A stretch of DNA of 64,000 bases from an uncultured Lachnospiraceae bacterium (GCA_947588845.1 CANQAR010000002.1:1-64000), one strand, 5' to 3'; positions 26,801-45,486 are shown, numbered from the stretch's first letter. Numbers and translations are program-made. The notes: a model not told the origin generated them from the sequence alone.

Positions 26801-29201
26801 CCGTTTCCGGATCTTTCCCGGGCTCTGGCTGAATCTCGGTTTCCGACTGACTCTCCGCTTCCGTTTCAAACTCGGACTGAATTTCTGACTCGGACTCATT
26901 CCCAAATTCTGTTTGCGGTTCTGATTCTGACTGAATTTCCGTTTCCAATTCGCTTTCCGCTTTTGATTCGGTCTCGGACTCCGATTCGGTCTGGATTTCC
27001 GTTTCCGGATCTTTCCCGGGCTCTGGCTGAATCTCGGTTTCCGACTGACTCTCCGATTCCGTTTCAAACTCGGACTGAATTTCTGGCTCTGGCTCATTTC
27101 CAAGTTCCGTTTGCAGTTCTGATTCTGGCTGAATTTCAGTTTCCGATTCGCTTTCCGCTTTTGATTCGGTCTCAGACTCCGACTCGGTCTGAATTTCCGT
27201 TTCCGGTTCACCTTCCGCTTTTGATTCGATCTCAGACTCCGACTCGGTCTGAATTTCTGTTTCCGGATCATTCCCTAGCTCTGTCTGAATCTCGGGTTCT
27301 GGCTGTCTCTCCAATTCCAATTCAGTCTCAGACTCCGATTCGGTCTGGATCTCGGATTCCGACTGACTCTCCAGTTCCGATTCCGTCTCGGTCTGAATTT
27401 CTGGCTCTGGCTCATTTCCAGATTCTGGCTGCTGCTCTGATTCTGACTGAATTTCGGTTCCCGGATGACTTTCCTCTTTCGATTCAGTCTCAGACTCCAA
27501 CTCGGTCTGGATTTCCGTTTCCGGATCTTTCCCTGGCTCTGGCTGAATCTCGGTTTCCGACTGACTCTCCAGTTCCGATTCAATCTCGGTCTGAATTTCT
27601 GGCTCTGGCTCATTTCCAAGTTCCGTTTGCAGTTCTGATTCTGGCTGAATTTCCGTCTCTGATTCATCCTCTGTTCCTGTCGGTACTTCGGTTTCCGGAT
27701 GGCTTTCTTCTTTCAATCCAGTCTCGGACTCCGATTCCGATTTGGTCTGGGTTTCCGTTTCCGGATCATTCCCTGACTCTGGCTGAATCTCGGCTTCCGG
27801 ATGAATCTCCACTTCTGTTTCAGTCCCTGACTCCGGTTCCTCTTTTGATTCAAATCCTGGCTCTGATTCGGACTGTAATCCCGTTTCCAGATCTTTCCCC
27901 GGCTCTGACTGAATCTCGGCTTCCAGCTGGCTCTCCAATTCCGATTCAGTCTCGGACTCCGGTTCCAATTCGGTCTGGATTTCCGTTTCCAAATCATTCC
28001 CTGACTCAGTTTGAATCTCAGTTTCCAACTGGCTCTCCTCTTCCGTTTCAAACTCGGACTGAATTTCTAGCTCTGGCTCATTTCCGGATTCTGGCTGAAT
28101 CTCAGTTTCCGGATGGCTCTCCGTTTCTGATTCAGTCTCGGACTGAATTTCTGGCTCGGACTCATTCCCAAATTCTGTTTGAGGTTCTGATTGAATTTCA
28201 GTTTCCGGTTCGCCTTCCGCTTTTGATTCGGTCTCAGACTCCGACTCGGTCTGGAATTCCGGCTCTGGCTCATCTCCAGTTTCTGACTTAGACTCTGATT
28301 CTGTCCGAGCTTCGGTTTCCGGCTGGTCCTCCAGTTTCAATTCAGTTTCGTTTTCCTCACTCTGCTCTGTTTCCGTTTGAATCCCGGTTTCCGACTGGAC
28401 TTCCGATTTCTCACCTGTCTCCGGTTCCTCTTTTGATTCAGATCCTGGCTCTGATTCGGACTGTAGTTCCGTCTCCAATTCATCCCCTGATTCTGGCTGA
28501 ATTTCCGCCTCCGGTTCATTCTCCGCTCCTAGCTGAGCTTCAGTTTCCGGATGGCTTTCTCCGTTCGGCTCGGTCTTGGACTCCGGTTCTGATTCATTCT
28601 CGAACTGAATTTCCGTCTCTGACTCGGTTCCGGACTCTGTTTGCCATTCTGTCTGAACTTCGGTCTCCATCTGGTTTTCCACTTTTGATTCGGTTTCGGA
28701 CTCTGGCTCCGATTCAGTCTGGATTTCCGGTTCCGGATCTTTCCCGGGTTCTGGCTGAATTTCAGTTTCCGGCTGACTCTCCGCTTCCGTTTCAAACTCA
28801 GATCGAATTTCTGGTTCTGGCTGGATCTCAGTTTCCGGCTGATTTCCTGTCTCCGGCACTATCTGATCTTCCGCTTCCGGCGCAGCTTTCCATTCTGTCT
28901 CTGGTTCCGTACAAATCTCTGTTTCCGGCAGATCTTCTGGCTCCATGTTTTGGATTTCGGATTCTTCCGGAACTTTCGGACCCGATTTCATCCGCCGCTT
29001 CTTTCCGGACTGATTTTTTTCTACCTGTTTATCCATGCTCATCGCACTGCTTTTTCTCATGGGATTCGGAATCTCATAAAACAGCAGCACTGCGATCAGC
29101 ACCATCGCCGTGACAGCTTCCCATCGTACTTTACGGGCGGAAACCTTTCTGCCCAATCTTTTTAACCGGGTATTTCCGTCTTCTTTTTCTTTTTTAGTCA
29201 T
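23862..29201 (-). CDS. Giant Glu/Thr/Ser-rich surface repeat protein with Ig-like domains
   Basis: A 1779-residue protein, not a recognised named gene. A short basic cytoplasmic start is followed by a membrane segment (AVTAMVLIAVLLFYEI). About 1050 residues then consist of degenerate acidic repeats such as ETEIQTESESETESKAE, with almost no hydrophobics and no cysteines. The C-terminal ~600 residues contain two or three Ig/Big-like beta domains (phrases like VDRTMPELSVEGI and VDRTPPSCVISGI), and a final membrane helix (GTVVLLAGILFLLSVLAYC) with a basic tail. Both ends should therefore be cytoplasmic, with an external loop of about 1700 residues. Start 29201 has a GAGGAGG box and overlaps the kinase stop by 8 bp. 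It could be a cell-envelope stalk or a sensor partner of the kinase. Confidence 0.85.
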   Translation of the reverse strand: MTKKEKEDGNTRLKRLGRKVSARKVRWEAVTAMVLIAVLLFYEIPNPMRKSSAMSMDKQVEKNQSGKKRRMKSGPKVPEESEIQNMEPEDLPETEICTEPETEWKAAPEAEDQIVPETGNQPETEIQPEPEIRSEFETEAESQPETEIQPEPGKDPEPEIQTESEPESETESKVENQMETEVQTEWQTESGTESETEIQFENESEPESKTEPNGESHPETEAQLGAENEPEAEIQPESGDELETELQSESEPGSESKEEPETGEKSEVQSETGIQTETEQSEENETELKLEDQPETEARTESESKSETGDEPEPEFQTESESETESKAEGEPETEIQSEPQTEFGNESEPEIQSETESETESHPETEIQPESGNEPELEIQSEFETEEESQLETEIQTESGNDLETEIQTELEPESETESELESQLEAEIQSEPGKDLETGLQSESEPGFESKEEPESGTETEVEIHPEAEIQPESGNDPETETQTKSESESETGLKEESHPETEVPTGTEDESETEIQPESELQTELGNEPEPEIQTEIESELESQSETEIQPEPGKDPETEIQTELESETESKEESHPGTEIQSESEQQPESGNEPEPEIQTETESELESQSESEIQTESESETELELERQPEPEIQTELGNDPETEIQTESESEIESKAEGEPETEIQTESESETESKAESESETEIQPESELQTELGNEPEPEIQSEFETESESQSETEIQPEPGKDPETEIQTESESETESKAESELETEIQSESEPQTEFGNESESEIQSEFETEAESQSETEIQPEPGKDPETEIQTESESETELKAESELETEIQSESEPQTEFGNESEPEIQTELESETESKAEGEPETEIQSESELQAELGNEPETEQAEENETESEVGIQTEPGNDPEMEIQTELESETESKAEGEPETEIQSESEQQPESGNELETEIQTEFETESESQPETEIQPEFETEAEDQPETGIKPEVRQSTGTEAAPELETGNEMEKQEEENEVINPEDQAEIDPELTDDVPPDPENTEEADDKMEEFEVWEGEPESLSGEFEEETEMSESQSGRCEDQPEKKKETESESESITGEESVQKIPTPEETWPEEDDYSKENESRKEETRQKEKDSQKEEISQKTGSHSQKQKEIELQTEQKTEPQMKPETEPETELQMKPETEPQIKAEAGLQTEVQIPWVKVSEDEQENDAEKEKQVLRGQDYEIRGDAGAWYRDIKDRLWVRKGSGLTAAPVGETYNQGSRKTVLSGDGVFHFNLKQVDTTGSVLSESPGIYETYYVDGEVPAAKIEVDGNRSGNQVFSQTGSISITAPPDAQSGLRQTSYQIVPCNKNGKDAGMSQDADAWVKCGNLDKIDLDKEGFYRVYARTEDRVGNVNVSKSEVLCVDRTMPELSVEGIQDQTANSGDVVVKVRCSDKRYQEGSLQVRLVGLNNGIVMEPLKKKEGNKKAVVMFEDFPKERKYDDIYLLTVRAQDIAGNISEKNMKFSVNRCGSVYDLDEETREKLQKYYVKEPFDVLISETNIDYVGESKIFCRRDGVLHELVKGEDYQVALEGREDSWKQYQYKISKDVFDGEGVYELLLTSRDKANNSSDTGVQQKKMTFAVDRTPPSCVISGIEDQGVYKAEKMNVRVHAEDNICLKTMEIYRDGEVWKELSAAELEETDGVVDLAVKEKNEWQTLQVYLEDACGNTYHSREMPFYLSAHMSEQDIPEYEIGTISQKTDGEKTEKRTSERLFLDFGPVSKTEYGTVVLLAGILFLLSVLAYCGISGIKRKG
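25690..28930. repeat. Degenerate acidic-codon repeat array in the giant gene
   Basis: Roughly 3.2 kb made of variable-length, near-identical blocks built on GAA/GAG, ACC/ACT and TCN codons (minus strand). Longer duplicated blocks occur, for example two near-copies around 26.75-27.06 kb, indicating expansion by recombination or slippage. The array also opens long false ORFs in other frames. Confidence 0.85.
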
Positions 29202-30960
29202 TTTTCGCCTCCTCAAATGCTCTCTCCACCGCTTCTGCAGCTTCTTCGCATCGTTCGGGAAAAAATTCCTGTCCTCCTTCCTCCATAATCTCCTTAACGG
29301 CCGCCCGCATCTCCTTTCTTTTTATCCCGGCTTCCCGCAGTCTGGCCGCTTCAAATATCAGCAGGTTCAATCTTTCCTCCATCAGATTTTTCCGGACAAT
29401 CTCCACCTCCTCTCCCTGCACTGTTTCTGTTTTTATCTGATACAGCTGCGACAGATCTTTCCAGTAAATCGCTGAATCCGCCGCTTCTTCCCCTGTGATA
29501 TCCTGTTTTCCAAGTTTCTCATAGTAACTTCCAATTCTCTCATATACTTCTGCCTCTCTTACCCAGCCAGCCTGTTCTTCTCCAGGATCTGCACAATGTA
29601 CAGCTTTCGCAAACCATCCGGATGCTGCCGCACGGCCTCCGCTTCCTTCATAAAAATACCAGTAGGCAATTCCCAGATCATAGGCGAGTTTTCCAAATTC
29701 CCCGGATGTTCTTTCAATTTGTTCAAACACGCGTTCCCCATTCAAAGGGAGCGCGGCATCCATCATTTCCTGCAGAACCTGCTCTTCTTCCAGAGAAAAA
29801 ACATAATCCGCATTTATTCTCTCCACAAGCTTCTGATAAGGAAGAATCTCTCCCGGGCAGAGCACAGCTGCCTGCCTGTACAGCAGGGCCGCCTGCGCAA
29901 ACCCCGCAAGCTCTGCCTGATCAATCAGTTTTTCATACTCCTGCCTGTGACTTCCTTCGCCGGCCGTCGTCTCTCCCGCCTCTCTCCATGCCAGGGTCAG
30001 CACACCTGCAAGCAGCAGGACCGCGATTCCCATCTGACTGCAGGAGCGCTCAAATTCTCTCTGCTTTTTTATCCTGAGAAGTTTTTTTCTAACTGCCGCT
30101 GCGCTGTCGGGACGTTTCTCCTGTTTTTCCTCCAGACATTCCAGCAACAGCTTCCGCACACGGTTTTTCCATCCAAAATTCTGCCATAAATGCCGAAAAT
30201 AACTGCCTTTCTGTGATATCCGATTGTCTCTGTCCGGCCGATCCCGCTGTTTCCCATACTTTCTCCCGGTCAGAAGAAAAAACATGGTTGCCCCAAAACT
30301 GTACAGATCCGTTCGTTCGTCAGCCTTTCCCTGCCGGTCAAACTGTTCCGGAGCCGCATATCCAGGCGTTCCAAAACAGCCCTGCATCTGATTTCCATCT
30401 GCTCTGACAGGCATGGCCGCCCCCAGATCCAGAAGAGTGAGGCTCCCATTGGAATGAATGAGAATATTGGATGGCTTTACATCCAGATGCAGCATCGGCA
30501 TACGGTCTGTGTGAAGATACTCCAGCGTCTCCAGAAGCTGCTCGGCAACACGAAAGAAAAACTGTTCATTTACTCCGGCCGGACTCACATATTCCGACAG
30601 CGGTTTTCCTTCCACATATTCCATCACAAGACAGATAACTCCGTCTTCCTGAAAAACATCGATGATCCGCGGCAGAGAGTCATGATGCACGCGTTTCAGC
30701 ATACTCAGCTCATGTATGCTTCTCTTCTCCAGATTTTGTCTGGAAACTTTGACTGCGCGGACCGCATCCGTCAAAATATGTTTTGTAAGATATACAGTCC
30801 CCTCTCCGCCTCTCCCCAGTTCACGGATTATTCTGTATTTTCCTGCTAATAAATCACCCGATCTCAGCTCTTCTGCCCCCTTTCGCAAAATCCCCGGTTC
30901 TGGTACTGCGTTGTTGTCAGCTGACAATACAATGCTTTGCGGTGCACCAGTATCCTGCAT
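29194..30960 (-). CDS. Transmembrane Hanks-type Ser/Thr protein kinase with TPR-like external domain
   Basis: A 588-residue protein. Residues 40-300 form a kinase: glycine loop GRGGEGTVY (49-57), ATP lysine K71, catalytic loop HLDVKPSN (catalytic D160), metal motif DLG (178-180, DFG variant) and a TPGYAAPEQF activation segment. A membrane helix follows at about 308-325 (MGIAVLLLAGVLTLAW). The last 260 residues are helical and TPR-like, and should lie outside. No PASTA domain is present, so this is not PrkC. It heads the operon with the giant repeat protein, YARHG protein and 379-residue protein, under a strong promoter. It may phosphorylate a cytoplasmic tail of these partners; that is inference. 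Confidence 0.9.
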   Translation of the reverse strand: MQDTGAPQSIVLSADNNAVPEPGILRKGAEELRSGDLLAGKYRIIRELGRGGEGTVYLTKHILTDAVRAVKVSRQNLEKRSIHELSMLKRVHHDSLPRIIDVFQEDGVICLVMEYVEGKPLSEYVSPAGVNEQFFFRVAEQLLETLEYLHTDRMPMLHLDVKPSNILIHSNGSLTLLDLGAAMPVRADGNQMQGCFGTPGYAAPEQFDRQGKADERTDLYSFGATMFFLLTGRKYGKQRDRPDRDNRISQKGSYFRHLWQNFGWKNRVRKLLLECLEEKQEKRPDSAAAVRKKLLRIKKQREFERSCSQMGIAVLLLAGVLTLAWREAGETTAGEGSHRQEYEKLIDQAELAGFAQAALLYRQAAVLCPGEILPYQKLVERINADYVFSLEEEQVLQEMMDAALPLNGERVFEQIERTSGEFGKLAYDLGIAYWYFYEGSGGRAAASGWFAKAVHCADPGEEQAGWVREAEVYERIGSYYEKLGKQDITGEEAADSAIYWKDLSQLYQIKTETVQGEEVEIVRKNLMEERLNLLIFEAARLREAGIKRKEMRAAVKEIMEEGGQEFFPERCEEAAEAVERAFEEAKND

Positions 30961-31507: not shown

Positions 31508-33481
31508 TCACGGAATCAGATTTTCATACACGATCCGGGAGATTTCCCGGATCTTTTCTTTTCCGGATTCCTCATCGCTCAGATCTTCTCCCAGTACACA
31601 CAAAACCCAGGCTTTTCCGTCTGCTTCTATCACCGCCGCGTCATTCTCCACACAGCTGCCGTCCTCTCCGGAAAACTCTCCCGCCTGGTTTGATACCTGC
31701 GCGCCTGTATCCGCGATTCCCTGCGGAATCTTATCTCTGTACGCCTGATTCTTCAGATACGCAAACATTTTGGCCGACGCCTCCTGCCCGACACAGGTTC
31801 CCTGGTAAATATCCGCAAGAAGTTTCCGGCAGTCGTAAGCCGTTGTCAGATTCTCTCCGGACGAAGCTTCCCCGGAAAATCCGCTCTTCATCACAGTTCC
31901 CGTGTAACCGTTCTCTTCACAGAACTGGTTTACAACGGCCATACCGTTCTGCTCGTCTCCCTGTCCGAGCCGGGTCAGAAGCTCCTGCGAGGCAGCCTGA
32001 TCCCCTTCGACGATCATTTTCGTGATTTTTTCTTTCAGTTCTCCTTCGTACGCCTCATTGAAAAAAATATGCCGTTCCTCCGTCTCCGGATAACAGATGC
32101 GGTCGTAGATTGCCGCCATCAGAAACAGTTTAACCACACCTTCCGCCGACATCTGCGCTTCTTCGTTGATGCCTGTTACAGCATGCGTATTCAGATCCTC
32201 CAGACTGACCGCCCACATTTCACTGCCTTCCGCCTCTGATGCAGAGAGAATCTCCTTCCGGATTTGCTCCATACCGTCGTTCTCACCCGTCTGCTGCTCT
32301 TGCTGCTCTGCCGCAGTCTGTACGGTTTTCATTCCTTTTTCCGTAAAATACCGGTCAATGCCGTCTGCAATTCCCGCGGCCATCTCCGTCTGCACTGCCG
32401 TATCCGCCATGCGCAGATCATCCGACTGATTGGTCATAAATCCCATTTCCAGAATCATAACCGGAATCTGGCTCCAGTTTATCCCGGTCATATCATCATA
32501 ATACTGAACCCCAAGACTTCCAAAAGACGTTCTGCCGCAGTAAGCATCAAGAATACACTGGCCCAGCAGATAAGAATCCTCCGCAAGATAAGATACATAA
32601 GGGTTGTCCGGGGAAGGAACCATTGCAAGCGCTCCCTGCACGCCTTCGTTGTCAGAACCATTCGCGTGAATACGGACATAAATATCTCCGCCTTCCTCCC
32701 ACGCCATGGTTGCTCTTTCCATATTACTGATCGCCGTGTCATTGTTCTCTCTCGTCAGAATGACTCTGTATCCGCGCGCTTCCAGTTCATCACGCAGCAG
32801 CATGGAAATTTCAAGATTCAGTTCATATTCCGGTTTCCCGCTGTACCTCCCCATGGTTCCGGTAGATGCTTTTGCTTTCATCTCCGTGGAACCGGGACCG
32901 AGCGGTTCCAGATCACTCATATTGACCCAGCTGCCCTGATGTCCCGGGTCAATCGCAACTGTCAGCCTGTTATCCTCCGTCTGCAGCTCGCTGACCGGCC
33001 CTTCTGTTTCCTGTACCTGCGCTTCTCCGGCTGTCTCTTCCTCTTGTGCCTGGGTTTCCCCGGCTGGTTCTCCCGACTCCTGTGCCTGCGTTTCTCCGGC
33101 CGTCTCTTCCTCCTGCGCTTGGGTTTCCCCAGCCGTCTTTTCTTCCTGTGCCTGGGTTTCCCCGGCTGGCTCTCCCGACTCCTGTGCCTGCGCTTCTCCG
33201 GCCGTCTCTTCTTCCTGTGCCTGCGTTTTCCCTGTCTTGCCGGCATTCCCTTCTTTGATCTTGTTTATCCCGCTGATCTCCCTGATCTCATTGATTTTAG
33301 TCTCACTGATTTCTCTGGTCTTCGTCTCTTCTGTCTCATTCGCGGTTCCCTGACTCCAACTTCGCCCGGAAACCGTCCGACCGCTCATCACCACAATATA
33401 CAGCAAAACAGACAGTATGACGACCGCAGCTGCCGCAAATATCCCAACTGTTTTTAATCCCTTCTGGTTCCTGAAGCTCAT
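31508..33481 (-). CDS. N-acetylmuramoyl-L-alanine amidase fused to a degenerate beta-lactamase-like domain
   Basis: A 657-residue membrane-anchored protein. A membrane helix (residues 11-32) is followed by a repetitive linker (about 85-160, units like AGETQAQEEET). Residues 172-385 are an Amidase_3 zinc amidase: H181 in DPGHQG, the EYELNLE glutamate, H272 in RIHANG and catalytic E345 in LEMGFM. It should cleave the MurNAc-L-Ala bond. Residues 405-657 resemble class A beta-lactamase-like serine hydrolases, but the three motifs read GVVK (for SxxK), GDQ (for SDN) and QAG (for KTG), so the domain is probably inactive and may bind cell wall. AAGGGGG box precedes the ATG. It is last in an operon with FN3, HAD and HD genes. 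Confidence 0.88.
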   Translation of the reverse strand: MSFRNQKGLKTVGIFAAAAVVILSVLLYIVVMSGRTVSGRSWSQGTANETEETKTREISETKINEIREISGINKIKEGNAGKTGKTQAQEEETAGEAQAQESGEPAGETQAQEEKTAGETQAQEEETAGETQAQESGEPAGETQAQEEETAGEAQVQETEGPVSELQTEDNRLTVAIDPGHQGSWVNMSDLEPLGPGSTEMKAKASTGTMGRYSGKPEYELNLEISMLLRDELEARGYRVILTRENNDTAISNMERATMAWEEGGDIYVRIHANGSDNEGVQGALAMVPSPDNPYVSYLAEDSYLLGQCILDAYCGRTSFGSLGVQYYDDMTGINWSQIPVMILEMGFMTNQSDDLRMADTAVQTEMAAGIADGIDRYFTEKGMKTVQTAAEQQEQQTGENDGMEQIRKEILSASEAEGSEMWAVSLEDLNTHAVTGINEEAQMSAEGVVKLFLMAAIYDRICYPETEERHIFFNEAYEGELKEKITKMIVEGDQAASQELLTRLGQGDEQNGMAVVNQFCEENGYTGTVMKSGFSGEASSGENLTTAYDCRKLLADIYQGTCVGQEASAKMFAYLKNQAYRDKIPQGIADTGAQVSNQAGEFSGEDGSCVENDAAVIEADGKAWVLCVLGEDLSDEESGKEKIREISRIVYENLIP

Positions 33482-36020: not shown

Positions 36021-38129
36021 TTACAGCCAGATAATATAGATCAGCGTAATACAGAATCCGATGCAGACCAGCATCAGACCAAAGGAAAGACTTCTCCCAA
36101 TGATCATGTTTTTCTCCCGGATTCCAAAGCGCAGCATGGCAAGTGTATGTCGGTAATCCGTATGAACCGGAGCGCTGCGCCTCCAGGTGCGGTTCAGAAG
36201 ATCCCGGAAGAAATTCATCACCGTACCGGCTGCCTTCGTCGCCACCGTACCTTCCGGCAGTTCATGCGGCAGAGGACTGTCGCGATAGATCGTCTTCCTG
36301 AGCGCAACGACACAGAGGTCGAGCAGCGAATCGAGAATCCTGCACGGGATCGCAGCAACGAAAGGCAGAATCTTTAAAAGCAGCGGACGGTAGATCAGAT
36401 TCTCAAGATCAAGCCATGCCGGCCACGCGTTGACGTAAACGTACTCTCCCTTTTCATTCTTTTTCATCAGGCTTGCCCATATCACGATCAGATAGACCAG
36501 AATACCGATCACAATCGATATCAGCGCGCCGGACAGATTTTCCCGGCTGAAGTAGGCCACTTGATGTCCCGCTTCCTCAAGATGCATCAGTCCCTGTCCG
36601 AGATGAGCCGCTCTGTCCATGATCTGGTGCGGGAAAAGTCCCCAGACCAGAAGCACAAGCGCGCTGCCCGCGAGCGCAAACGTGCTCTCCGGATTCATGT
36701 AACGCTTCATCCTGTCATATTTTTCCTGCAGGGCTGCATCCGTATTTTTCTCGATAAAGACTGCTTTGAACAGTTTTGTCATATATGCGATCGTCAGGCC
36801 GCCACTTACGAGGAAGATAATTTCCACCAGCTTGAATATCCCTGACGAGGAGTACTCGATAATACTCTCATGCAGCAGCGTCTTGCTGACGTATCCGCCA
36901 AAGAACGGAATTCCGCCGATGGCAAGCGCCCCAACAAGAAAGATCAGCTTCAGGAGCGGCTTTTTCCTCCCGAAACCGCGGATCTTGTTCAGATCAAGCT
37001 CATGCGTATTCATGAAGATGACGCCTGCCGCCATGAACAGCACCAGCTTGATCAGCGAATGATTGACCATATGCAGCAGCGTTCCGTGAACCGCAAGCGC
37101 ATTCTCTTCGCCCAGAAGCCCCTGCATTCCGACGCCGACCAGAATAAATCCGATCTGCGACATGGACGAACACGCCAGCGCGTGCTTTATGTTGATGGAA
37201 AAGACGGCAAGCAGCGCGCCTCCGAACATCGTCAGGACGCCGATTCCAAGAATCAGAGAGCCCCACGCCTTGTCATGCAGGAACAGATTGCAGCTCACAA
37301 TCAGCGTGCCGAAGATACCGGTCTTTGTCAGAATACCGGACAGCAGCGCCGAAGCCGGAGCCGGAGCCACCGGATGCGCTTTCGGCAGCCAGATATGGAG
37401 CGGAAACGCGCCCGCCTTCGCTCCGAATCCGAACAGCAGACACGCGCCTGCCGCATACAGCAGTTTTCTTCCGCTCTCATATGCCGCGGACGAAGAGGAT
37501 GCAGCCAGTTTTGTGCCGTAATCTGAGACTGCCGCGAGCAGTTTCGAGATCTCAAGCGTCCCGAATACGTGATAGATCAGGAAAATTCCCATCAGCATCA
37601 CAAGTCCGCCGATGACCGCCACCGCGAGGTAGGTCGCCGCCGCGCGCAGAGAAGGCTCATCCTCCTCCTGCGCCACCCAGACGTAGGAGGTAAACGACAT
37701 AATCTCAAAGAAAATAAACATTGTATAGAGATCCGCCGACAGGAACACGCCCATTGTCGCGCCGAACGTCAGCAGGAGAAACAGGTAAAAACGGTTCCTG
37801 TTGGCATGATGCGTAAAATATTCCCGTGAGAGAATCGTTGTCATCATCCACATCAGAGAAGCCACCGTCCCGTAAATCAGACGGAACCCGTCCAGTGTAA
37901 AGGACAGACCAAAACCGCAGATTCCGGCGATATGGCAGCCGGCGATCGTTTCGGCGGGATCGCTGCCTCCATACAGCACAAACAGCGCAGCCATAAAGAG
38001 AAATTCGCTCACCGTCACAAAATCAGCGATGTAATCCCTGATCTTCTCATTTTTCAGGCCCGCGAACCAGCCATACAGGCCTCCCAGGAACGGGTAGAAT
38101 ACAAGTATCGCAAGAATTATTCCGATCAT
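36021..38129 (-). CDS. Mrp/complex I-like proton-conducting subunit (fourth NuoL/M/N paralogue, 702 aa)
   Basis: A large membrane protein of the NuoL/MrpA/MrpD family. Charged channel residues expected of the family are present: Glu in IFFEIMSFTS (TM5), Lys in GFGAKAGAFPLHIWLP (TM7), Lys in GILTKTGIFG (TM8) and Lys in GGYVSKTLLHES (TM12). About 200 residues follow the core, including further helices and an amphipathic stretch, like the lateral-helix extension of NuoL-type proteins. It is the last of ten genes in the antiporter operon, 16 bp from the previous gene. It presumably moves H+ or Na+; which ion cannot be told. Confidence 0.85.
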   Translation of the reverse strand: MIGIILAILVFYPFLGGLYGWFAGLKNEKIRDYIADFVTVSEFLFMAALFVLYGGSDPAETIAGCHIAGICGFGLSFTLDGFRLIYGTVASLMWMMTTILSREYFTHHANRNRFYLFLLLTFGATMGVFLSADLYTMFIFFEIMSFTSYVWVAQEEDEPSLRAAATYLAVAVIGGLVMLMGIFLIYHVFGTLEISKLLAAVSDYGTKLAASSSSAAYESGRKLLYAAGACLLFGFGAKAGAFPLHIWLPKAHPVAPAPASALLSGILTKTGIFGTLIVSCNLFLHDKAWGSLILGIGVLTMFGGALLAVFSINIKHALACSSMSQIGFILVGVGMQGLLGEENALAVHGTLLHMVNHSLIKLVLFMAAGVIFMNTHELDLNKIRGFGRKKPLLKLIFLVGALAIGGIPFFGGYVSKTLLHESIIEYSSSGIFKLVEIIFLVSGGLTIAYMTKLFKAVFIEKNTDAALQEKYDRMKRYMNPESTFALAGSALVLLVWGLFPHQIMDRAAHLGQGLMHLEEAGHQVAYFSRENLSGALISIVIGILVYLIVIWASLMKKNEKGEYVYVNAWPAWLDLENLIYRPLLLKILPFVAAIPCRILDSLLDLCVVALRKTIYRDSPLPHELPEGTVATKAAGTVMNFFRDLLNRTWRRSAPVHTDYRHTLAMLRFGIREKNMIIGRSLSFGLMLVCIGFCITLIYIIWL

Positions 38130-38145
38130 CCCCTGTTCCCCCTTT

Positions 38146-39618
38146 CTACATCACTGAGCTGATCTGCTCCAGCATATCGGTAAACCATCCGGAGCAGACG
38201 CCGAAATAAATAATCGCTATCGTGAACACCGTAAGCGGCAGAATCATCATCCAGTTCGGATCTTCCACATCCGAAATCGTGGAAAAATCAAAATCCTTTC
38301 CTGGAAAGAACGCACGCACCACAATCGTCATCATATAGATCGCCGTGAGAAGCGCCGAAACCAGAAGCGCGGCAATTCCAAGGTAAGCCGCTCCTGTTCC
38401 CGCGTCAAGCGCCGCTTTCACAAGATTCCACTTGCTGACAAAACCCGCAAGGCCGGGAACACCCATCAGAGCCAGACCAGATATGGTGAAGACCACGAAT
38501 ACCTTCGGCATTCTGTATCCGAAACCGTTCAGCTGATGGACATACTCGCGCCCCGTTTTGTAAATGACAGCGCCCACGCAGAAGAAAGCCGAGATCTTGA
38601 TAAACGCGTGGAATACCATGTGGCTCATCGCGCCCGCAAGTCCCAGCGGCGACATCAGCACGACTCCAAACAACACATAGGAGAGGTTGCTGACCGTGGA
38701 CCACGCAAGCCTGCGCTTCATATGCGTCTCCTTTACCGCGCGGCTGCAGCCGTAGACGATCGTAATGATGACCGCGGCCATCACAACGCCCTGTGCCCAT
38801 GTTCCGCGCAGGAAATCCGCGCCGAAGCTGTAATAAGTCACACGCATGGCCGCGAACGCACCCGCCTTCACGACCGCCACCGCGTGAAGCAGGGCCGTAA
38901 CCGGTGTCGGGGCGACGCCGGCCTTCGGCAGCCAGGAACAGAACGGCCAGATCGCCGTCTTGATCGAGAAGCCGAAAAAGCACATCACATAAGTAAACAG
39001 GATCATGTTTCTGTGATCCCCGATTTTCGCAAAATCCAGAACGCCGCCAGGCACAAAGTTCGAGGTTGTCCCGTAGATCAGGACAAACGCCAGGCCGATA
39101 AAGCCGAATGCCGCTCCTCCAAGCATGTAATAGACGTACGTACGGCCCGCGAGGATCGCTTCTCTCGTCAGCGTATGGATCACCAGAGGCAGCGTCACAA
39201 TGCTGAGCGCTTCGTAGAAACAGTACATCGTCACAATGTCCTCCGCAAGCGCGATGCCGAGCGTGATGCCGTAAGTCATTGTGTAAAACATGAAGAAATA
39301 TTTCTCATGTCCTTCGTGTTTCATGTACTCAAACGAGTACAGCGTCGCCAGAGGCCAGAGAAACGCGACCAGTCCCGCGAACACGGAGCCAAGTCCGTCG
39401 AGCTTAAAACTGAGCGACAGATTTCCCGCAAACCGAAACAGGACAAACTCCTCCTGCGGCTGGTTAAATAAAGTCACAAACATCAGAATCGTCACAAGAA
39501 GCACGGCCGCCTCGATATAAACCATCATCCAGAGTCTGTTTTTAAACGGGATGAAAGGAATCAGCGCGCCTGCCAGAACCGGCAGCAATACGACTACTGC
39601 CAAAATAGCTGCATTCAT
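38146..39618 (-). CDS. Mrp/complex I-like proton-conducting subunit (third paralogue, 490 aa)
   Basis: A 490-residue member of the NuoL/M/N-MrpA/D family with about 14 hydrophobic segments. Key residues are kept: Glu in CFYEALSIVT, Lys in GFSIKTAIWPFCSWLP, Lys in VAVVKAGAFA and Lys in GFVSKWNLVKA. The usual PLHxWLP motif reads PFCSWLP, an unusual substitution of the motif's His by Cys-Ser in this copy. It is tightly spaced (15-16 bp) with its neighbours. Confidence 0.85.
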   Translation of the reverse strand: MNAAILAVVVLLPVLAGALIPFIPFKNRLWMMVYIEAAVLLVTILMFVTLFNQPQEEFVLFRFAGNLSLSFKLDGLGSVFAGLVAFLWPLATLYSFEYMKHEGHEKYFFMFYTMTYGITLGIALAEDIVTMYCFYEALSIVTLPLVIHTLTREAILAGRTYVYYMLGGAAFGFIGLAFVLIYGTTSNFVPGGVLDFAKIGDHRNMILFTYVMCFFGFSIKTAIWPFCSWLPKAGVAPTPVTALLHAVAVVKAGAFAAMRVTYYSFGADFLRGTWAQGVVMAAVIITIVYGCSRAVKETHMKRRLAWSTVSNLSYVLFGVVLMSPLGLAGAMSHMVFHAFIKISAFFCVGAVIYKTGREYVHQLNGFGYRMPKVFVVFTISGLALMGVPGLAGFVSKWNLVKAALDAGTGAAYLGIAALLVSALLTAIYMMTIVVRAFFPGKDFDFSTISDVEDPNWMMILPLTVFTIAIIYFGVCSGWFTDMLEQISSVM

Positions 39619-39633
39619 TTCCTCTCCTCCTCT

Positions 39634-41133
39634 CTAAAATACAAGATCCGCGATCCTGCTGATAAAGCCGATCAGCGGATTCGGAATAACGCCGGGCAGC
39701 ACGGCAATCGCAGTAAGAAACAAAACCGGGTACAGCATTCCCTTCGGCGCGTCGTCCTTTGGCACGGACGGGTAATCTTTCCCGGGGAAGAATCCCTTCA
39801 TCGTAACGGGAAGAAGATAACCGGCCGTGAGAAGCGCGCTTACAAGAAGTATGACCGGACCGAGCCATCCGAAGACTCCGACATTCGCCTCAAGAGCTCC
39901 CTGCGCCAGATACCACTTGCTGATAAAGCCGCTTGTCGGAGGAATTCCGATCAGGGCAAGGGACGCAAAAGTAAAACACCACAGCGTTCCCGGCATCTGC
40001 TTTCCGATTCCGTCCAGTTCATCCACTCTCGTCTTATTGCATTTGACGATAAAGACTCCGGCCACGAGGAACAGTGTACACTTGATAAACATATGAAATA
40101 CCGTGTGCAGCATCGCTCCCTCGAAAGCGGTCGGGCTCAAAAGCGAGAGGCCGAACAGGATGTAGGACACCTGGCTGACCGTCGAGTAGGCAAGCCTTTT
40201 CTTGAAGACAGGCTCGCGGAATGCCAGCAGAGATCCCATAAAGACCGTGAGCAGCGTAAGCGTCATCCATGCGGTCTGTACCCAGCTTCCACGCAGGAAA
40301 TCCGCGCCGGCGACATAGTAGACGACGCGAAGCACAGCGAGGACGCCGGCCTTCGCGATCACGCCGGAGAGCACCGCGGACGCCGGGGACGGAGCCACCG
40401 GATGCGCGGTCGGAAGCCACGCGTGCAGCGGAAACATACCGGCTTTCGCGCCAAAACCGATCAAAGCCGCGAAAACGGCAATCAGAAGAATCGTGCCGTT
40501 CTGCGCGGCAAGCTCCGGATTCAGCGTCCCGCCCGCGGTAAAGGTGAGCGTGTCGCAGTTCTGATACAGGAAAAAGAGCGCAAACAGTCCGAGATATGCG
40601 CCGCACATCGAGTAAAACAGATATTTCAGGGAAGCCATGATCGCCTCCCGCGAACCGTTGTGCAGCACAAGCGGAGCGGACGTAACCGTCATCAGCTCAT
40701 AAAACAGATACATCGTCACAAGATTTCCGGAAAACGCGAGCGCGATCAGCACGCCGAACACGATCAGATAGAAAGCGAAGAACTGCTTCTCTTTCCCTTC
40801 ATGCGGCATGTAGGTGAACGCGTAAATACCGACTGCCGTCCAAGCAATGCAGAAGATCGCCGCAAACAGCCTGCCGGCTCCGTCAATCTGAAAATAAACC
40901 GGAATTCCTTTCACAATCTCAAACAGCGCGAGGCTTCCTTTTCCCGCCCACACCAGAGCCAGCGTGAAAACCGTCGTCGCGATGAGGGTAAAAAACACAA
41001 GGATGTGCAGCCTTTTCAGTTCCTCTTCGGACGGCCCGGACGCGTCTTTTCTCCGGTCAAATGCCAGCGAGATGAGCAGGCAGGCGCCCACGATCACGGG
41101 AAGGCATACCGGCAGCAAAATCCAACTATTCAT
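39634..41133 (-). CDS. Mrp/complex I-like proton-conducting subunit (second paralogue, 499 aa)
   Basis: A 499-residue NuoL/M/N-MrpA/D family membrane protein. Residues expected for ion translocation are present: Glu in LFYELMTVTSAP, Lys in GFGAKAGMFPLHAWLP, Lys in GVIAKAGVLAV and Lys in GFISKWYLAQG. It differs clearly in sequence from the other three paralogues, which argues for old divergence rather than a recent tandem duplication. It lies 12 bp after the preceding gene. Confidence 0.85.
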   Translation of the reverse strand: MNSWILLPVCLPVIVGACLLISLAFDRRKDASGPSEEELKRLHILVFFTLIATTVFTLALVWAGKGSLALFEIVKGIPVYFQIDGAGRLFAAIFCIAWTAVGIYAFTYMPHEGKEKQFFAFYLIVFGVLIALAFSGNLVTMYLFYELMTVTSAPLVLHNGSREAIMASLKYLFYSMCGAYLGLFALFFLYQNCDTLTFTAGGTLNPELAAQNGTILLIAVFAALIGFGAKAGMFPLHAWLPTAHPVAPSPASAVLSGVIAKAGVLAVLRVVYYVAGADFLRGSWVQTAWMTLTLLTVFMGSLLAFREPVFKKRLAYSTVSQVSYILFGLSLLSPTAFEGAMLHTVFHMFIKCTLFLVAGVFIVKCNKTRVDELDGIGKQMPGTLWCFTFASLALIGIPPTSGFISKWYLAQGALEANVGVFGWLGPVILLVSALLTAGYLLPVTMKGFFPGKDYPSVPKDDAPKGMLYPVLFLTAIAVLPGVIPNPLIGFISRIADLVF

Positions 41134-41145
41134 TCTTCTCTCCTC

Positions 41146-42648
41146 CTATGCAAACATCCCGAGTCCCTGCTCGATCATTCTCACAATCGGGGCCGAACCA
41201 AGTCCCAAGATCAGGTTCAAAGCGACGAGACACAGCATGGCGGCTGATTTTGTCCTGTTCTCTGTCATATGGATCTCCCGGAAGCCTTCTCTGCCCGCAG
41301 TCCGTTCCGGCGTGTACAGGCGGATTACCGTCTTCATAAAGTAAACGGCATTCAGAACCGTACTGACAGCAAGCGCGATCAGAGCCGGGAACATTTTCCA
41401 TCCATCTCCAATTGCCGCCTGCGCGAACAGCAGTTTCGAGATAAAGCCTGACAGAGCCGGGAAGCCGACCATCGAGAGACTTCCGACCGTAAACGCAATG
41501 CCGGCCAGTTTGTTGCGGTACCCCGCTCCCGTCAGATCAAAGAAATCCGTGCTGTCGTTCGAAGAGTCCGTGATCCCTGACGCAGAAAGAAACAGCAGAG
41601 ATTTCGTCGCCGCATGGGACAGAACATGGAAAATACTGGCCATAATACCGGCCTCCGTCGCAAGGCCGAAGCCCATATAGATATAACCGATCTGCGCCAC
41701 CGAAGAATAGGCGACCATCCGGCGGATGTTATTCTCGCGGATCGCACTGATTGATCCCATGATCATGCCCAGGATGCCGAAAATAAACAGAATATTGACG
41801 ACTTTGCTGTCCTGGATCACGTCAAACCCGATCACGCGGTAGAAAATCTTGATCAGCAGGAATATATAACCCTTGGACACCAGCGAAGAAAGAATCGCGG
41901 CCGACGATACCGTGGAATATCCATAGGCGTCGGGCAGCCATGCATGGAACGGAAACAGCGCGCTCTTGATCGCGAGACCGACCGACATCAGTCCCACCGC
42001 CACGAGAAGCGGAACACGGTACTGCCCTGTCCGGTGGATGATCTCCACCTGTTCTTTTATATTGCTCATCAGCAGATGCCCCGTCACATCGTAGAGATAG
42101 CAGATGCCGAGAAGCAGCATACCGGAGCCCAGAAGACTCATGATCATGTAGCGCGTCGCGGCCTCGATCGTCCGCCCGTTCTGTTTGATCATGATCAGAC
42201 CGCAGGCCGAGATCGTATTGATTTCCACGAACACGTAGGCCGTGAACAGGTCGTTCGTGTAGATCAGCGCGAGCAGCGAACAGAGCAGAAGATTGATCAT
42301 GATATAATAGAGATTCTTTTTTTCATCCTCAATTTCCGCCGCCTGCTCCTGATATCCTCCGATCACGCACAGCAGCATGACCACACAGAAAAACAGCGCC
42401 ATCCCTGCCTCAAGCACGCCGATGCGGATCTCATTGCCCCACGGCGCCGGGAAATGTCCCATCATATAGACATAGCTCTCACCTGTCCCGAGAACAAACA
42501 GGAATACCATAAGCGACATCGCCGCCACCAGCGACATCATGGCCAGATTCAGCCTTTTCGCCTTCTTTCCTCCCATGATCGAGGACAGAGAACCTGAGAA
42601 CAATGACACAATGATGGAAATAAAAGGAAGATTCTGTACAAACTGCAT
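41146..42648 (-). CDS. mnhD: MrpD-like antiporter subunit (first NuoN/MrpD paralogue, 500 aa)
   Basis: A 500-residue membrane protein closest in layout to MrpD/MbhH. Charged residues are in place: Glu in YVFVEINTISA, Lys in GLAIKSALFPFHAWLPDAYG, Lys in SSLVSKGYIFLL and Lys in GFISKLLFAQA. The ATG overlaps the mnhC stop as TGATG. Following directly after MrpC as in mrp and mbh operons, it is the best candidate for the standard D subunit; the next three genes are extra relatives. Confidence 0.88.
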   Translation of the reverse strand: MQFVQNLPFISIIVSLFSGSLSSIMGGKKAKRLNLAMMSLVAAMSLMVFLFVLGTGESYVYMMGHFPAPWGNEIRIGVLEAGMALFFCVVMLLCVIGGYQEQAAEIEDEKKNLYYIMINLLLCSLLALIYTNDLFTAYVFVEINTISACGLIMIKQNGRTIEAATRYMIMSLLGSGMLLLGICYLYDVTGHLLMSNIKEQVEIIHRTGQYRVPLLVAVGLMSVGLAIKSALFPFHAWLPDAYGYSTVSSAAILSSLVSKGYIFLLIKIFYRVIGFDVIQDSKVVNILFIFGILGMIMGSISAIRENNIRRMVAYSSVAQIGYIYMGFGLATEAGIMASIFHVLSHAATKSLLFLSASGITDSSNDSTDFFDLTGAGYRNKLAGIAFTVGSLSMVGFPALSGFISKLLFAQAAIGDGWKMFPALIALAVSTVLNAVYFMKTVIRLYTPERTAGREGFREIHMTENRTKSAAMLCLVALNLILGLGSAPIVRMIEQGLGMFA

Positions 42649-43025
42649 CACAGGCCCTCCTTCTTAAGCATGGTCGAGATCTCATCGAGATTCAGTGTGT
42701 GGAACCTGCGGTACAGGCGGATTGTGAGCGACAGCATCAGGGCGCTCACCGACACGGAAACCACGATGCCCGTCAGGACAAGACCCGCCGGGATCGGATT
42801 GATATACGCTTCCACACTCTGGACGCCATCCGTGACAATCGGAGCGGAGCGGCCGACAATATAACCCTTCAGTGCCAGAAACAGATACATCGCCGTATCC
42901 ATGATATTGAGGCCGATGATCTTCTTGATCAGGTTTTTCTGCAGAAGGAGGTTGGAAAAGCCGATCGCGAACAGAATCATCGACACAGCCTCCGGATAAT
43001 TGTGCATCAGATTTGATAAATCCAT
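42648..43025 (-). CDS. mnhC: MrpC/NuoK-like antiporter subunit
   Basis: A 125-residue protein with three transmembrane segments in NuoK arrangement, including the conserved stretch KIIGLNIMDTAMYLF and a final helix VLTGIVVSVSVSALMLSLTIRLYRR. It corresponds to MrpC/MnhC/MbhG, which joins the D subunit in the membrane domain. It sits between the MrpB fusion gene and the first MrpD-like gene, the standard order. Confidence 0.9.
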   Translation of the reverse strand: MDLSNLMHNYPEAVSMILFAIGFSNLLLQKNLIKKIIGLNIMDTAMYLFLALKGYIVGRSAPIVTDGVQSVEAYINPIPAGLVLTGIVVSVSVSALMLSLTIRLYRRFHTLNLDEISTMLKKEGL

Positions 43026-43026
43026 A

Positions 43027-43992
43027 TCAGAATCCTCCTTTCCGGAACATCACATAGAATGTATACATCGTGCCGGCGACGACAATGCCGACACAGATAT
43101 TAAGAATCAGGATCAGGCCGCTGCTTAAGATCGCACCCGGCGTTCCAAGCGGAATGATGCTCTCAATATGGTTCGCACCCGTAAAGAAGGAGTAGCTCTT
43201 CGCAAGGCAATAGCAGCCGAGAGCGCCAAAGCACATCCATTTGTAGGTTTTCGCCGTAAAGAAGCGCTCCGTTTTCTCGAAGCCGAACGCATTCAGATAC
43301 AGGATCAGGCCCGCGCCTATGATAGCTCCGCCCGAGAAACCTCCGCCCGGTCCCAGATGACCTCCGAGAATCACATAGATTCCAAAAATCATGATCGGAG
43401 GAACCACGATCTTCGCGACCGTCTGCAGAATCACGTCATTCTCCGGCTCATGCGCGCTGTCGCTTGCTTCCTCTTCCTGAAGTTTTTTCTTGTTGCCATC
43501 AAGACGCAGCAGGATCAGCACCGCGCAGGTCGCGATAAAAAGCACGTGAGACTCGCCCAGCGTATCAAACGCACGGTAATCCAGAATCATGCCCGTGACA
43601 ATGTTGACAGCGCCCGTTTCCTGAAGCCCGTTCTCTATGTAGCGCTGCGGCACTTCATTGTTTGCCGGATTCCCGGCATCTCCAAGAGGAGGAAGATAGG
43701 AGACCGCCACGAGAAACAGGCTCACCATACAGATACAGAACAGAACGCTGACGACCCGGTACAGTGTCTGGAAAGGCCCTGTCTTCCGGTTCCGTTCCAG
43801 ATTGTAGATCTGGTCCAGCATTTTCTGTTTTTCCTTCTCTCTTTTTTTCTTTACTTTTTTGGATTCCGTAAACGGTTCCTGCGGCTTCATCTCCACCTGA
43901 TCCAGGAACAGATCCTTCTCTCCCGTAAACCACTGATGAAGTCGGAAGGAACGCGTTTTCCGATATGATTCTTCACTGATCTTCCGGCTCAT
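43027..43992 (-). CDS. mnhB: MbhE-MrpB fusion antiporter subunit
   Basis: A 321-residue protein. A highly charged cytoplasmic N-terminal region of about 75 residues (ESKKVKKKREKEKQ) comes first. Then an MbhE-like domain, equivalent to the last part of MrpA (LPPLGDAGNPANNEVP, AFDTLGESHVLF), and finally an MrpB domain with the hallmark LGGHLGPGGGFSGGAI. In canonical mrp operons the first part belongs to MrpA and in mbh operons it is a separate gene. ATG 43992 has an AGGAGGAAGGAG box; the gene overlaps the previous one by 20 bp. Confidence 0.87.
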   Translation of the reverse strand: MSRKISEESYRKTRSFRLHQWFTGEKDLFLDQVEMKPQEPFTESKKVKKKREKEKQKMLDQIYNLERNRKTGPFQTLYRVVSVLFCICMVSLFLVAVSYLPPLGDAGNPANNEVPQRYIENGLQETGAVNIVTGMILDYRAFDTLGESHVLFIATCAVLILLRLDGNKKKLQEEEASDSAHEPENDVILQTVAKIVVPPIMIFGIYVILGGHLGPGGGFSGGAIIGAGLILYLNAFGFEKTERFFTAKTYKWMCFGALGCYCLAKSYSFFTGANHIESIIPLGTPGAILSSGLILILNICVGIVVAGTMYTFYVMFRKGGF

Positions 43993-44278
43993 TTTCTCCT
44001 TCCTCCTTTTCTTCTTCCTGTTTTTTTCCGCCGTCGTCCATCTCAATCATCGCGTGAATCTTTTTCAGAGTAATGAAAAAGAGAACCGAAGTCACACCCG
44101 CTCCGACCGCGGCTTCCGTGATCGCCAGATCCGGAGACTCCAGAAGCAGCCAGATGACCGACATGACCAGACTGTACGACATAAAGATCGCAATCGCGTT
44201 CAGCAGGTTTCTTGAAACACTGACCGCGATTGCGCACACGACCAGAAATCCAAGAAGAATATACATAAAAATCTGCAC
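43973..44278 (-). CDS. MbhD-like (DUF4040) antiporter subunit
   Basis: A 101-residue protein equivalent to the MrpA C-terminal DUF4040/MbhD region, here a stand-alone gene. The signature SPDLAITEAAVGAGVTSVLF with its conserved acidic residues is clear. Three helices are followed by an acidic tail (EEEKEEGENEPEDQ) that overlaps the start of the next gene. This splitting matches the hydrogenase-linked Mbh layout more than Mrp. Confidence 0.88.
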   Translation of the reverse strand: MQIFMYILLGFLVVCAIAVSVSRNLLNAIAIFMSYSLVMSVIWLLLESPDLAITEAAVGAGVTSVLFFITLKKIHAMIEMDDGGKKQEEEKEEGENEPEDQ

Positions 44279-44281
44279 AGC

Positions 44282-44683
44282 CTAATCCTCCTTTCCTTTC
44301 TCTGCCTTTACGCTCTCCTGTTCTTTTTCGGCGGCCAGTTCGGCTTCCAGCTCGGACAGCTTCCGGATGCGGTAATGCTTCTCTCTCTCTTCATCCGTCG
44401 TAACCTCAAGACGAGCGATCAGATGGGAAGATACCGGAGAAGAAAACCACAGGAACAAAATGACGAAAAACAATTTCAGCGAAATAAAATTAAATCCATT
44501 CATCAGAATCAGACCCACAATGGAAAATCCGATGCCGAGCGTGTCGCCCATCGCCGCCGCGTGCATCCGGTTCAGCACATATTTAAAGCGAAACACGCCG
44601 ACCATCTCGATCGCAAAGATCGCGAGTCCGAACAGCAGAAGGAACGCTCCGGCCAGAAATCTGATCCATTCAATCACCGCCAT
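44282..44683 (-). CDS. mnhG: MrpG/MnhG antiporter subunit
   Basis: A 133-residue membrane protein with three hydrophobic segments, containing GVFRFKYVLNRMHAAAMGDTLG, the typical MnhG/PhaG stretch. The C terminus is a charged cytoplasmic tail. ATG 44683 has a GGAGG box nine bases upstream and overlaps mnhF by 14 bp; the track ORF start ten codons earlier lacks a suitable site. Confidence 0.9.
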   Translation of the reverse strand: MAVIEWIRFLAGAFLLLFGLAIFAIEMVGVFRFKYVLNRMHAAAMGDTLGIGFSIVGLILMNGFNFISLKLFFVILFLWFSSPVSSHLIARLEVTTDEEREKHYRIRKLSELEAELAAEKEQESVKAEKGKED

Positions 44684-45002
44684 GTTTCTGTTCCTCCTTT
44701 TCCTTGTTTGCAAGATAAACTCCCATGTAAACCCGCGTCAGCACGATCACGGCCAGGAAGCTGAGCAGCGCGTAGATCAGGCAGATATCCGCCAGATATC
44801 CTTCCTGCTGAAGAAGCGCCAGAATCGCGATCATGACCATGATCATCGTCCCCATCATATTGATCGCGACGATCCGGTCCGCAATCCTCGGACCGACCAC
44901 CGCCCGGACCAGGCAGAGCACAACCATCAGCGCCAGAAAGATCAAAGCGCCTGTGAACAGCCCATAATACGCCTGTTCCAGCATTGTTATTCCACTATTC
45001 AT
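44670..45002 (-). CDS. mnhF: MrpF/MnhF antiporter subunit
   Basis: A 110-residue membrane protein with three helices. The conserved family stretch VVGPRIADRIVAINMMGTM identifies MrpF. It overlaps mnhE by 8 bp and mnhG by 14 bp, showing coupled translation in the E-F-G order of mrp operons. Confidence 0.9.
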   Translation of the reverse strand: MNSGITMLEQAYYGLFTGALIFLALMVVLCLVRAVVGPRIADRIVAINMMGTMIMVMIAILALLQQEGYLADICLIYALLSFLAVIVLTRVYMGVYLANKEKEEQKHGGD

Positions 45003-45486
45003 ACACGTTTCCCTCCTCTGTCACAGTGCCCTCTTCCAGACCGGAGATCCGGTCCACAAAGACTGAGCGGTCAATCCCCTCTGCAAGGCTTCCATCCAGA
45101 CAATGCACCACGTACTCATCCTCCTCAAGCGATACCGTGATCGTTCCCGGAGTCAGCGTGATCGCGTTCGCAAGCAGTGTGCGGCATGTCGGCGTTTTCA
45201 AGTCAGAGCGGAACATTACAAGCGCCGGCTCAATCTCTTCCCGCTCGGAGATGATCATATGCATCACGGCAAAATTCGCCTTGACGATCTCCTTTACTAG
45301 AATCACCGCATAGCACAGGAATTTCCACGCCTTCACAAACATCGTCCGTTCCTTCGCAAGACTGTGATCCATAAATCTGCAGGTAAATGCAAACATGACC
45401 GCCGCGACGACAAGACCGATCAGACAGATCTCAAGTGTGATATTTCCGTTGAAAATAATCCACAAGATGAAATACAGCAAAAACAA
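44995..45486 (-). CDS. mnhE: MrpE/MnhE antiporter subunit
   Basis: A 163-residue protein starting the antiporter operon. Two N-terminal hydrophobic segments are followed by the family hallmark ANAITLTPGTITVSLEED and a soluble C-terminal domain. The start codon is TTG at 45484-45486 with an AAGGTGAG box; an in-frame TGA lies three codons upstream, so no earlier start is possible. A short ORF of seven codons ends two bases before the TTG. Confidence 0.88.
   Translation of the reverse strand: MFLLYFILWIIFNGNITLEICLIGLVVAAVMFAFTCRFMDHSLAKERTMFVKAWKFLCYAVILVKEIVKANFAVMHMIISEREEIEPALVMFRSDLKTPTCRTLLANAITLTPGTITVSLEEDEYVVHCLDGSLAEGIDRSVFVDRISGLEEGTVTEEGNVYE

Follow-up and report, generated by a model that had tools for sequence, protein, structure and literature searches.

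A ten-gene Mbh-type Mrp operon with four antiporter-like subunits, predicted to encode a stand-alone cation/proton antiporter in Lachnospiraceae

Whether each antiporter-like subunit (APLS, of the MrpA-N/MrpD/NuoL/M/N type) moves one proton per cycle in complex I and Mrp remains a matter of debate, one that quinone chemistry complicates in the case of complex I. For the two-APLS Mrp, a mechanism with one proton per APLS per cation cycle (2 H+ : 1 Na+) has been proposed, in which coupling runs through Lys-TM12/Glu-TM5 contacts and the unit is explicitly extendable to more APLS (PMC7419157). Group 3 Mrp systems have no canonical full-length mrpA, sometimes carry mrpD in multiple copies and are irregular in gene order (PMC8415708, PMC5703873), and the stand-alone Group 3 Mrp of P. 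furiosus, with one D subunit, uses Na+ as coupling ion (PMC8415708). For complex I with an additional NuoM, four APLS in a row, the last of them NuoL-like, have been described (Chadwick et al. 2018, cited in PMC7419157).

The window analyzed here is a 64,000-nucleotide stretch of DNA from an uncultured Lachnospiraceae bacterium, located on a 151-kb contig of a 5.06-Mb genome that is 97% complete. On its minus strand, ten tightly spaced or overlapping genes (36021-45486) follow the order E-F-G-MbhD-(MbhE+B)-C-D1-D2-D3-D4 (Table 1). Gene calls and Pfam profiles thereby confirmed the order given in an earlier note on this DNA, as well as its statement that the MrpA C-terminal parts are split as in hydrogenase-linked Mbh modules; the small subunits are of the Mbh type. 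D1 to D4 are four Proton_antipo_M (PF00361) proteins with E values of 1e-49 to 1e-56. All Mrp parts, A (N and C) and B to G, are represented in the cluster, MrpA being distributed over three pieces (MbhD, MbhE and D4). The closest solved relatives of the MrpC-like subunit are 6u8y_G and 6cfw_G, and that of D1 is the MBX subunit 6u8y_H. NCBIfam gave matches to many Mrp, NADH-dehydrogenase and hydrogenase-4 models, all below cut-off, and therefore no curated equivalog covers the ten proteins. Upstream, the operon is flanked by an FAA-hydrolase-family gene, and downstream by one that has no Pfam match. Promoter-like sites were no commoner than in shuffled sequence.

Table 1. Genes of the four-APLS operon, with positions in the window.
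Product	Length (aa)	Position	Strand	Profile match	Remark
MrpE/MbhA subunit	163	44995..45486	-	PF01899 MNHE 7e-31	
MrpF/MbhB subunit	110	44670..45002	-	PF04066 (MrpF_PhaF) 8e-14	
MrpG/MbhC subunit	143	44282..44713	-	PF03334 (PhaG_MnhG_YufB) 3e-21	
MbhD (MrpA C-terminal part 1)	101	43973..44278	-	PF13244 3e-20	aligned to 6cfw_D
MbhE + MrpB fusion	339	43027..44046	-	PF20501 + PF04039 (MnhB)	
MrpC/MbhG/NuoK-like subunit	125	42648..43025	-	PF00420 (Oxidored_q2) 1e-19	
APLS D1 (MrpD/MbhH/NuoN-like)	501	41146..42651	-	PF00361 1e-56	D1 clade
APLS D2 (middle type)	499	39634..41133	-	PF00361 9e-56	
APLS D3 (middle type, D2 duplicate)	490	38146..39618	-	PF00361 4e-49	D3 clade 100/100
APLS D4 (MrpA-N/NuoL type)	702	36021..38129	-	PF00361 9e-54	

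Since the start used by most relatives corresponds to the ATG at 43992, the fusion gene probably begins here rather than at the TTG at 44046 farther upstream. The N-terminus of the fusion (43700-44046) has a hydrophilic extension of about 90 residues with a conserved W..GE.D motif, which is common to the Lachnospiraceae-type MbhE+B fusions and could possibly be a cytosolic docking or regulatory part. Elsewhere in the window lie an N-acetylmuramoyl-L-alanine amidase plus beta-lactamase-like domain protein with a long repetitive N-terminal linker of the AGETQAQEE type (31508-33481), and a 1784-residue protein without Pfam match (23862-29216), whose neighbors are a serine/threonine protein kinase gene (29194-30960) and a YARHG-domain protein (22730-23809).

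The operon is not a chance arrangement, because 66 of 80 related loci have four full-length APLS in the same order. These Lachnospiraceae-type loci were found by scanning genome contigs (about 80 with the ten-gene order and varied flanks) and include Eisenbergiella porci, Schaedlerella arabinosiphila, Hungatella hathewayi WAL-18680 and Fusibacillus kribbianus; the remaining loci that were checked run off their contigs. A few loci that appeared to hold three APLS were rejected as such: in L083, L089, L098 and L107 the sequence ends about 220 bases or less from D3, and in L101 D2 is present as an intact frame. Within complete Lachnospiraceae loci the row length is constantly four. By searching 196 genomes of the same order for the full MbhE+B fusion protein, we found it in 25, from three families, and the surrounding regions in 17 of these 25 showed the identical block except where a contig end cuts it.

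An AlphaFold2 model of D4, built from 36 window and locus sequences, reached a mean pLDDT of 88.8, and its best structural matches, which cover most of its length, are Bacillus pseudofirmus MrpA (TM-score 0.72 by query) and NuoL chains. The predicted C-terminus carries TM15, long (lateral) helices and a final anchor helix, like NuoL/MrpA, so that on the model the row reads as three MrpD-type subunits (D1-D3) and one of the MrpA-N type (D4). The earlier note had counted four paralogues, and four are indeed present, but D4 is modeled as an MrpA-N/NuoL-type subunit with a lateral helix rather than a fourth equal MrpD. Lengthening of this helix has reportedly been seen in complex I with an extra NuoM. 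Here, the residues following the TM12 Lys in the last APLS number 234-254 with three APLS, 250-370 with four and 283-286 with five; these lengths show no clean trend, and the idea of a D4 lateral helix that grows with the number of APLS was therefore rejected.

All four APLS of the window possess the TM5 Glu and the TM7, TM8 and TM12 Lys previously assigned to them: E143, K229, K260 and K406 in D1; E146, K230, K261 and K406 in D2; E136, K220, K251 and K396 in D3; and E142, K238, K269 and K416 in D4. Across about 90 loci, this Glu/Lys/Lys/Lys set is conserved in D1, D2 and D4 wherever it can be read. In D3, the TM8 Lys is replaced by Asn or Thr in 12 of 89 readable sequences, with the Glu, the TM7 Lys and the TM12 Lys retained, and because of this loss D3 may be partly degenerate in those loci.

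In a careful tree of the APLS, D2 and D3 are sister clades, and the group to which they belong (100/99) also takes in the lone middle subunits from Peptoclostridium, Haloterrigena and L058. In the bacterial three-APLS operons concerned, the first subunit groups with D1 and the last with D4; the haloarchaeal first subunit is placed less securely. The deep placement of D1-D4 among E. coli NuoL/M/N and HyfB/D/F is blurred by long branches. The tree indicates that the operon descends from an older three-APLS stand-alone operon, the middle subunit of which was duplicated into D2 and D3.

To judge from the trees, row length changed several times independently, other families reaching five APLS, because duplicates other than the D2/D3 pair are found. 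In a wider tree, the two middle-type subunits of L184 and L185 fail to match D2 and D3; L178 has D4-type copies; and in the families f19 and f23, one or two additional subunits arose by duplication of the D1 type, which brings the row to four (L055) or five (L052, L053) APLS. Since the single middle subunit of f19 and f23 groups with D2, D3 was probably lost there. The five-APLS operons L052 (1069-9626) and L053 (1435-9496) are stand-alone, consist of D1, two D1-type duplicates, D2 and D4, and have full catalytic residues. In L178 (1-13637), three of the five APLS are near-identical D4-type copies, one of them before mrpE; a Cache-domain protein is embedded in the cluster and NuoG/molybdopterin-type genes lie upstream. 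Single-APLS clusters also occur in the same order (L060-L068), and L063 shows three tandem Mrp-like clusters with one APLS each, in which no redox genes were recognised.

Taken together, we consider it probable that the operon encodes one complex: an electrogenic antiporter that stands alone, exchanges H+ for a monovalent cation (most likely Na+) and belongs to the Mrp/CPA3 superfamily, with the Mbh-type ("Group 3") layout. In the single linear assembly that we infer, the cation path and the site at which cation and H+ movement are coupled would be built from the small subunits (E, F, G, MbhD, MbhE-B and C), and D1-D2-D3-D4 would be a row of four proton-conducting APLS, with the NuoL/MrpA-N-like D4 last and its lateral helix tying the row together. 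Because the chain mechanism assigns one proton to each APLS and all four have the needed residues, about 4 H+ per Na+ would be predicted. With that many protons per cation, a modest proton-motive force could support a large sodium gradient, and the antiporter could sustain its Na+ gradient where proton-motive force is low, or exchange the ions that Rnf pumps. A broader idea, which we put forward as a speculation that may well prove wrong, is that APLS number works as a gear of about 1 H+ per cation per unit, lengthened repeatedly and independently into clusters of one, three, four and five units and tuned to the weak proton-motive force available to gut fermenters, and often to Rnf.

The ratio might also still be 2:1, or vary, if the additional APLS (D3 above all) contribute mainly structure, buffering or regulation, and we give this a tentative place beside the four-proton prediction. 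The Asn or Thr at the D3 TM8 position and the lack of relation between lateral-helix length and APLS number are in keeping with it, as is the fact that the stoichiometry of Mrp itself has not been firmly measured (PMC7419157). Against it stand the full catalytic set throughout D1, D2 and most D3 as well as D4, and a row length that was repeatedly changed and then fixed within Lachnospiraceae. Redox-free antiporters with three, four and five APLS and the same catalytic residues offer a way to decide, since their H+/Na+ ratios can test the one-proton-per-APLS rule.

A role as functional partner of Rnf through a common Na+ gradient, possibly with contact, also has some claim, without being what we expect. 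Under it, the ion pumped by Rnf would be exchanged for the ion needed by ATP synthase or solute transporters, which is compatible with a stand-alone antiporter and supplies it with a partner. In L190 (11844-17529), a complete rnfC-D-G-E-A-B set lies about 110 bp directly upstream of a three-APLS operon; in L177 (1856-7813) the rnf genes stop 28 bp upstream of one, and in L187 (12169-17251) they are upstream with moaC in between, the three loci representing three Bacillota families. In addition, Rnf (PF03116) occurs in all 25 operon-bearing genomes and in 133 of the 171 others of the order (Fisher p = 0.005, uncorrected for kinship). However, the host rnf genes (rnfD) are on a contig other than that of the operon, none of the ten-gene loci examined adjoins rnf, and the linkage is confined to three-APLS cousins from other families. 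Redox genes next to the operon in relatives were named in the earlier note as grounds for refutation; these cousins provide them only in a weak sense, Rnf being a separate complex and not a homologous redox arm. Another three-APLS operon with a fused MbhE+B (L174, 3268-15533) is divergent from nuoE/nuoF/nuoG-like genes resembling those of an electron-bifurcating hydrogenase.

The choice of ion was considered from the cation path defined for Mrp, which comprises E706a, D792a, E796a, D29f, D35f, P86g, P114e, H131e and the MrpC His (PMC7419157). MbhD E55 is equivalent to MbhD E69 and MrpA E706, with Glu retained in 93 of 93 sequences; D161 and E165 of the fusion correspond to MrpA D792 and E796 (both retained in 98/98), and D43 of the C subunit to MbhG D37 (Asp in 97/97). 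The equivalents of P114e and H131e are retained in 90-91 of 91 MrpE sequences and that of P86g in 92 of 92 MrpG sequences. In MrpF, D42 takes the place of D29f, and N48 stands at the D35f site, which is described as invariable (PMC7419157). Asn occupies this site in 91/91 sequences, and the haloarchaeal operon and the cousins with three or five APLS have it too; in the redox-linked L059, as in Mrp, MBH and MBX, the residue is Asp. In the C subunit, the MrpC His pair is replaced by Thr/Tyr, Y47 being Tyr or Phe in 96 of 97 sequences. We regard the MrpF Asn and the C-subunit Tyr/Phe as sequence signatures of the family, and because these two positions are altered, ion affinity or ion choice may differ from that of Mrp. 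The same alterations, together with the ability of Mrp and Pha complexes to use K+ (PMC5703873, PMC7419157), would fit K+ or another cation as the main substrate, which nevertheless seems unlikely to us, as most cation-path carboxylates are conserved and the P. furiosus relative uses Na+ (PMC8415708). The ATP-synthase c-subunit, from which the ion type could be read, was not found in the host genome; this is probably an assembly gap, because the F1 alpha/beta genes sit close to a contig end.

The earlier note had reported no hydrogenase or redox genes at the operon and left open whether it is a stand-alone antiporter or serves as membrane arm to an oxidoreductase whose genes lie elsewhere. The first point was borne out, and the search for orphan MbhJ-N or Nuo-like subunits found no partner redox subunit: whole-genome searches of the 97%-complete assembly returned no NiFe-hydrogenase large subunit, no Oxidored_q6/NuoB/MbhJ and no NuoH (MbhM), as well as no DabA (PF10070), the partner in the DAB CO2-hydration pump. 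The same redox-gene and DabA searches obtained matches in control genomes, and the four PF00361 proteins of the operon are the only ones in the host genome. Because the genome is 97% complete, the absence of a redox gene carries a small residual doubt. No MBH or complex I genes adjoin the ten-gene block in the flanks of the approximately 80 loci, in which the sole redox-like match is a short ferredoxin-like one in L140; such genes would have been revealed by this search, as shown by the recovery of L059 and L181, two Mbh-type clusters that are truly redox-linked and carry homologues of NuoB, NuoH and the large subunit. Of the 25 genomes of the order that carry the operon, 4 have an Oxidored_q6 gene, in none of them at the operon. 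For all the Mbh-type split of the small subunits and the occurrence of L059 and L181 in the same phylum, a membrane arm of an MBH/complex-I-like oxidoreductase is thus highly improbable, being contradicted by the genome searches, by the 21 of 25 genomes without Oxidored_q6 and by the presence of the MrpA-N-type D4, the part that a hydrogenase module replaces in MBH (PMC7419157). The absence of a redox partner in the genome or beside the relatives' blocks speaks for the stand-alone antiporter with more APLS than canonical Mrp.

Lachnospiraceae, a large gut family, thus commonly carry a big bioenergetic complex that automated naming would label an ordinary Mrp or "hydrogenase" subunit. In the largely open-access literature searched, we found no description of a four- or five-APLS stand-alone Mrp and no paper on an Mrp antiporter in Lachnospiraceae. 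The contrast with the two-pump canonical Mrp drawn in the earlier note is right, but multi-D clusters without canonical MrpA are already classed as Group 3 (PMC8415708, PMC5703873), and the operon has the features of that group, with the MrpA-N homologue persisting as D4. Compared with the Group 1 Mrp of Bacillus/Anoxybacillus (PDB 7qru, 6z16), it has homologues of all seven subunits, the same APLS residues and a D4 fold similar to MrpA-N; however, Group 1 has a single mrpA, the seven genes ABCDEFG and two APLS, whereas here ten genes encode four APLS and an MrpA in three separate pieces, and MrpF D35 and the C-subunit His are changed to N and Thr/Tyr. The P. furiosus Mrp (mrpEFGBB'CD) likewise begins with E-F-G, has split or fused MbhD-MbhE-MrpB pieces and stands alone without a separate full-length mrpA (PMC8415708), but it has one MrpD and no MrpA-N-type subunit, in contrast to three and one here. 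P. furiosus MBH and MBS/MBX (PDB 6cfw, 6u8y) share the MbhA-H-type small subunits and the same split, with one and two APLS, respectively, instead of four; the redox module of MBH, Ech, MBS and complex I is missing from the operon, the whole genome and the flanks of the relatives. Complex I with an extra NuoM, as cited in PMC7419157, has the same four-APLS row ending in a NuoL-like subunit but is a redox-driven pump, while the Lachnospiraceae operon has no redox arm. Three-APLS stand-alone operons, which are common in Bacillota and also found in one haloarchaeon (e.g., the plasmids of Peptoclostridium acidaminophilum, L071, and Haloterrigena turkmenica, L155), share the small-subunit order, the MrpF Asn signature and D1-Dmid-D4 orthologues, and differ in having one middle subunit in place of D2 and D3 and, in most cases, unfused MbhE and MrpB.
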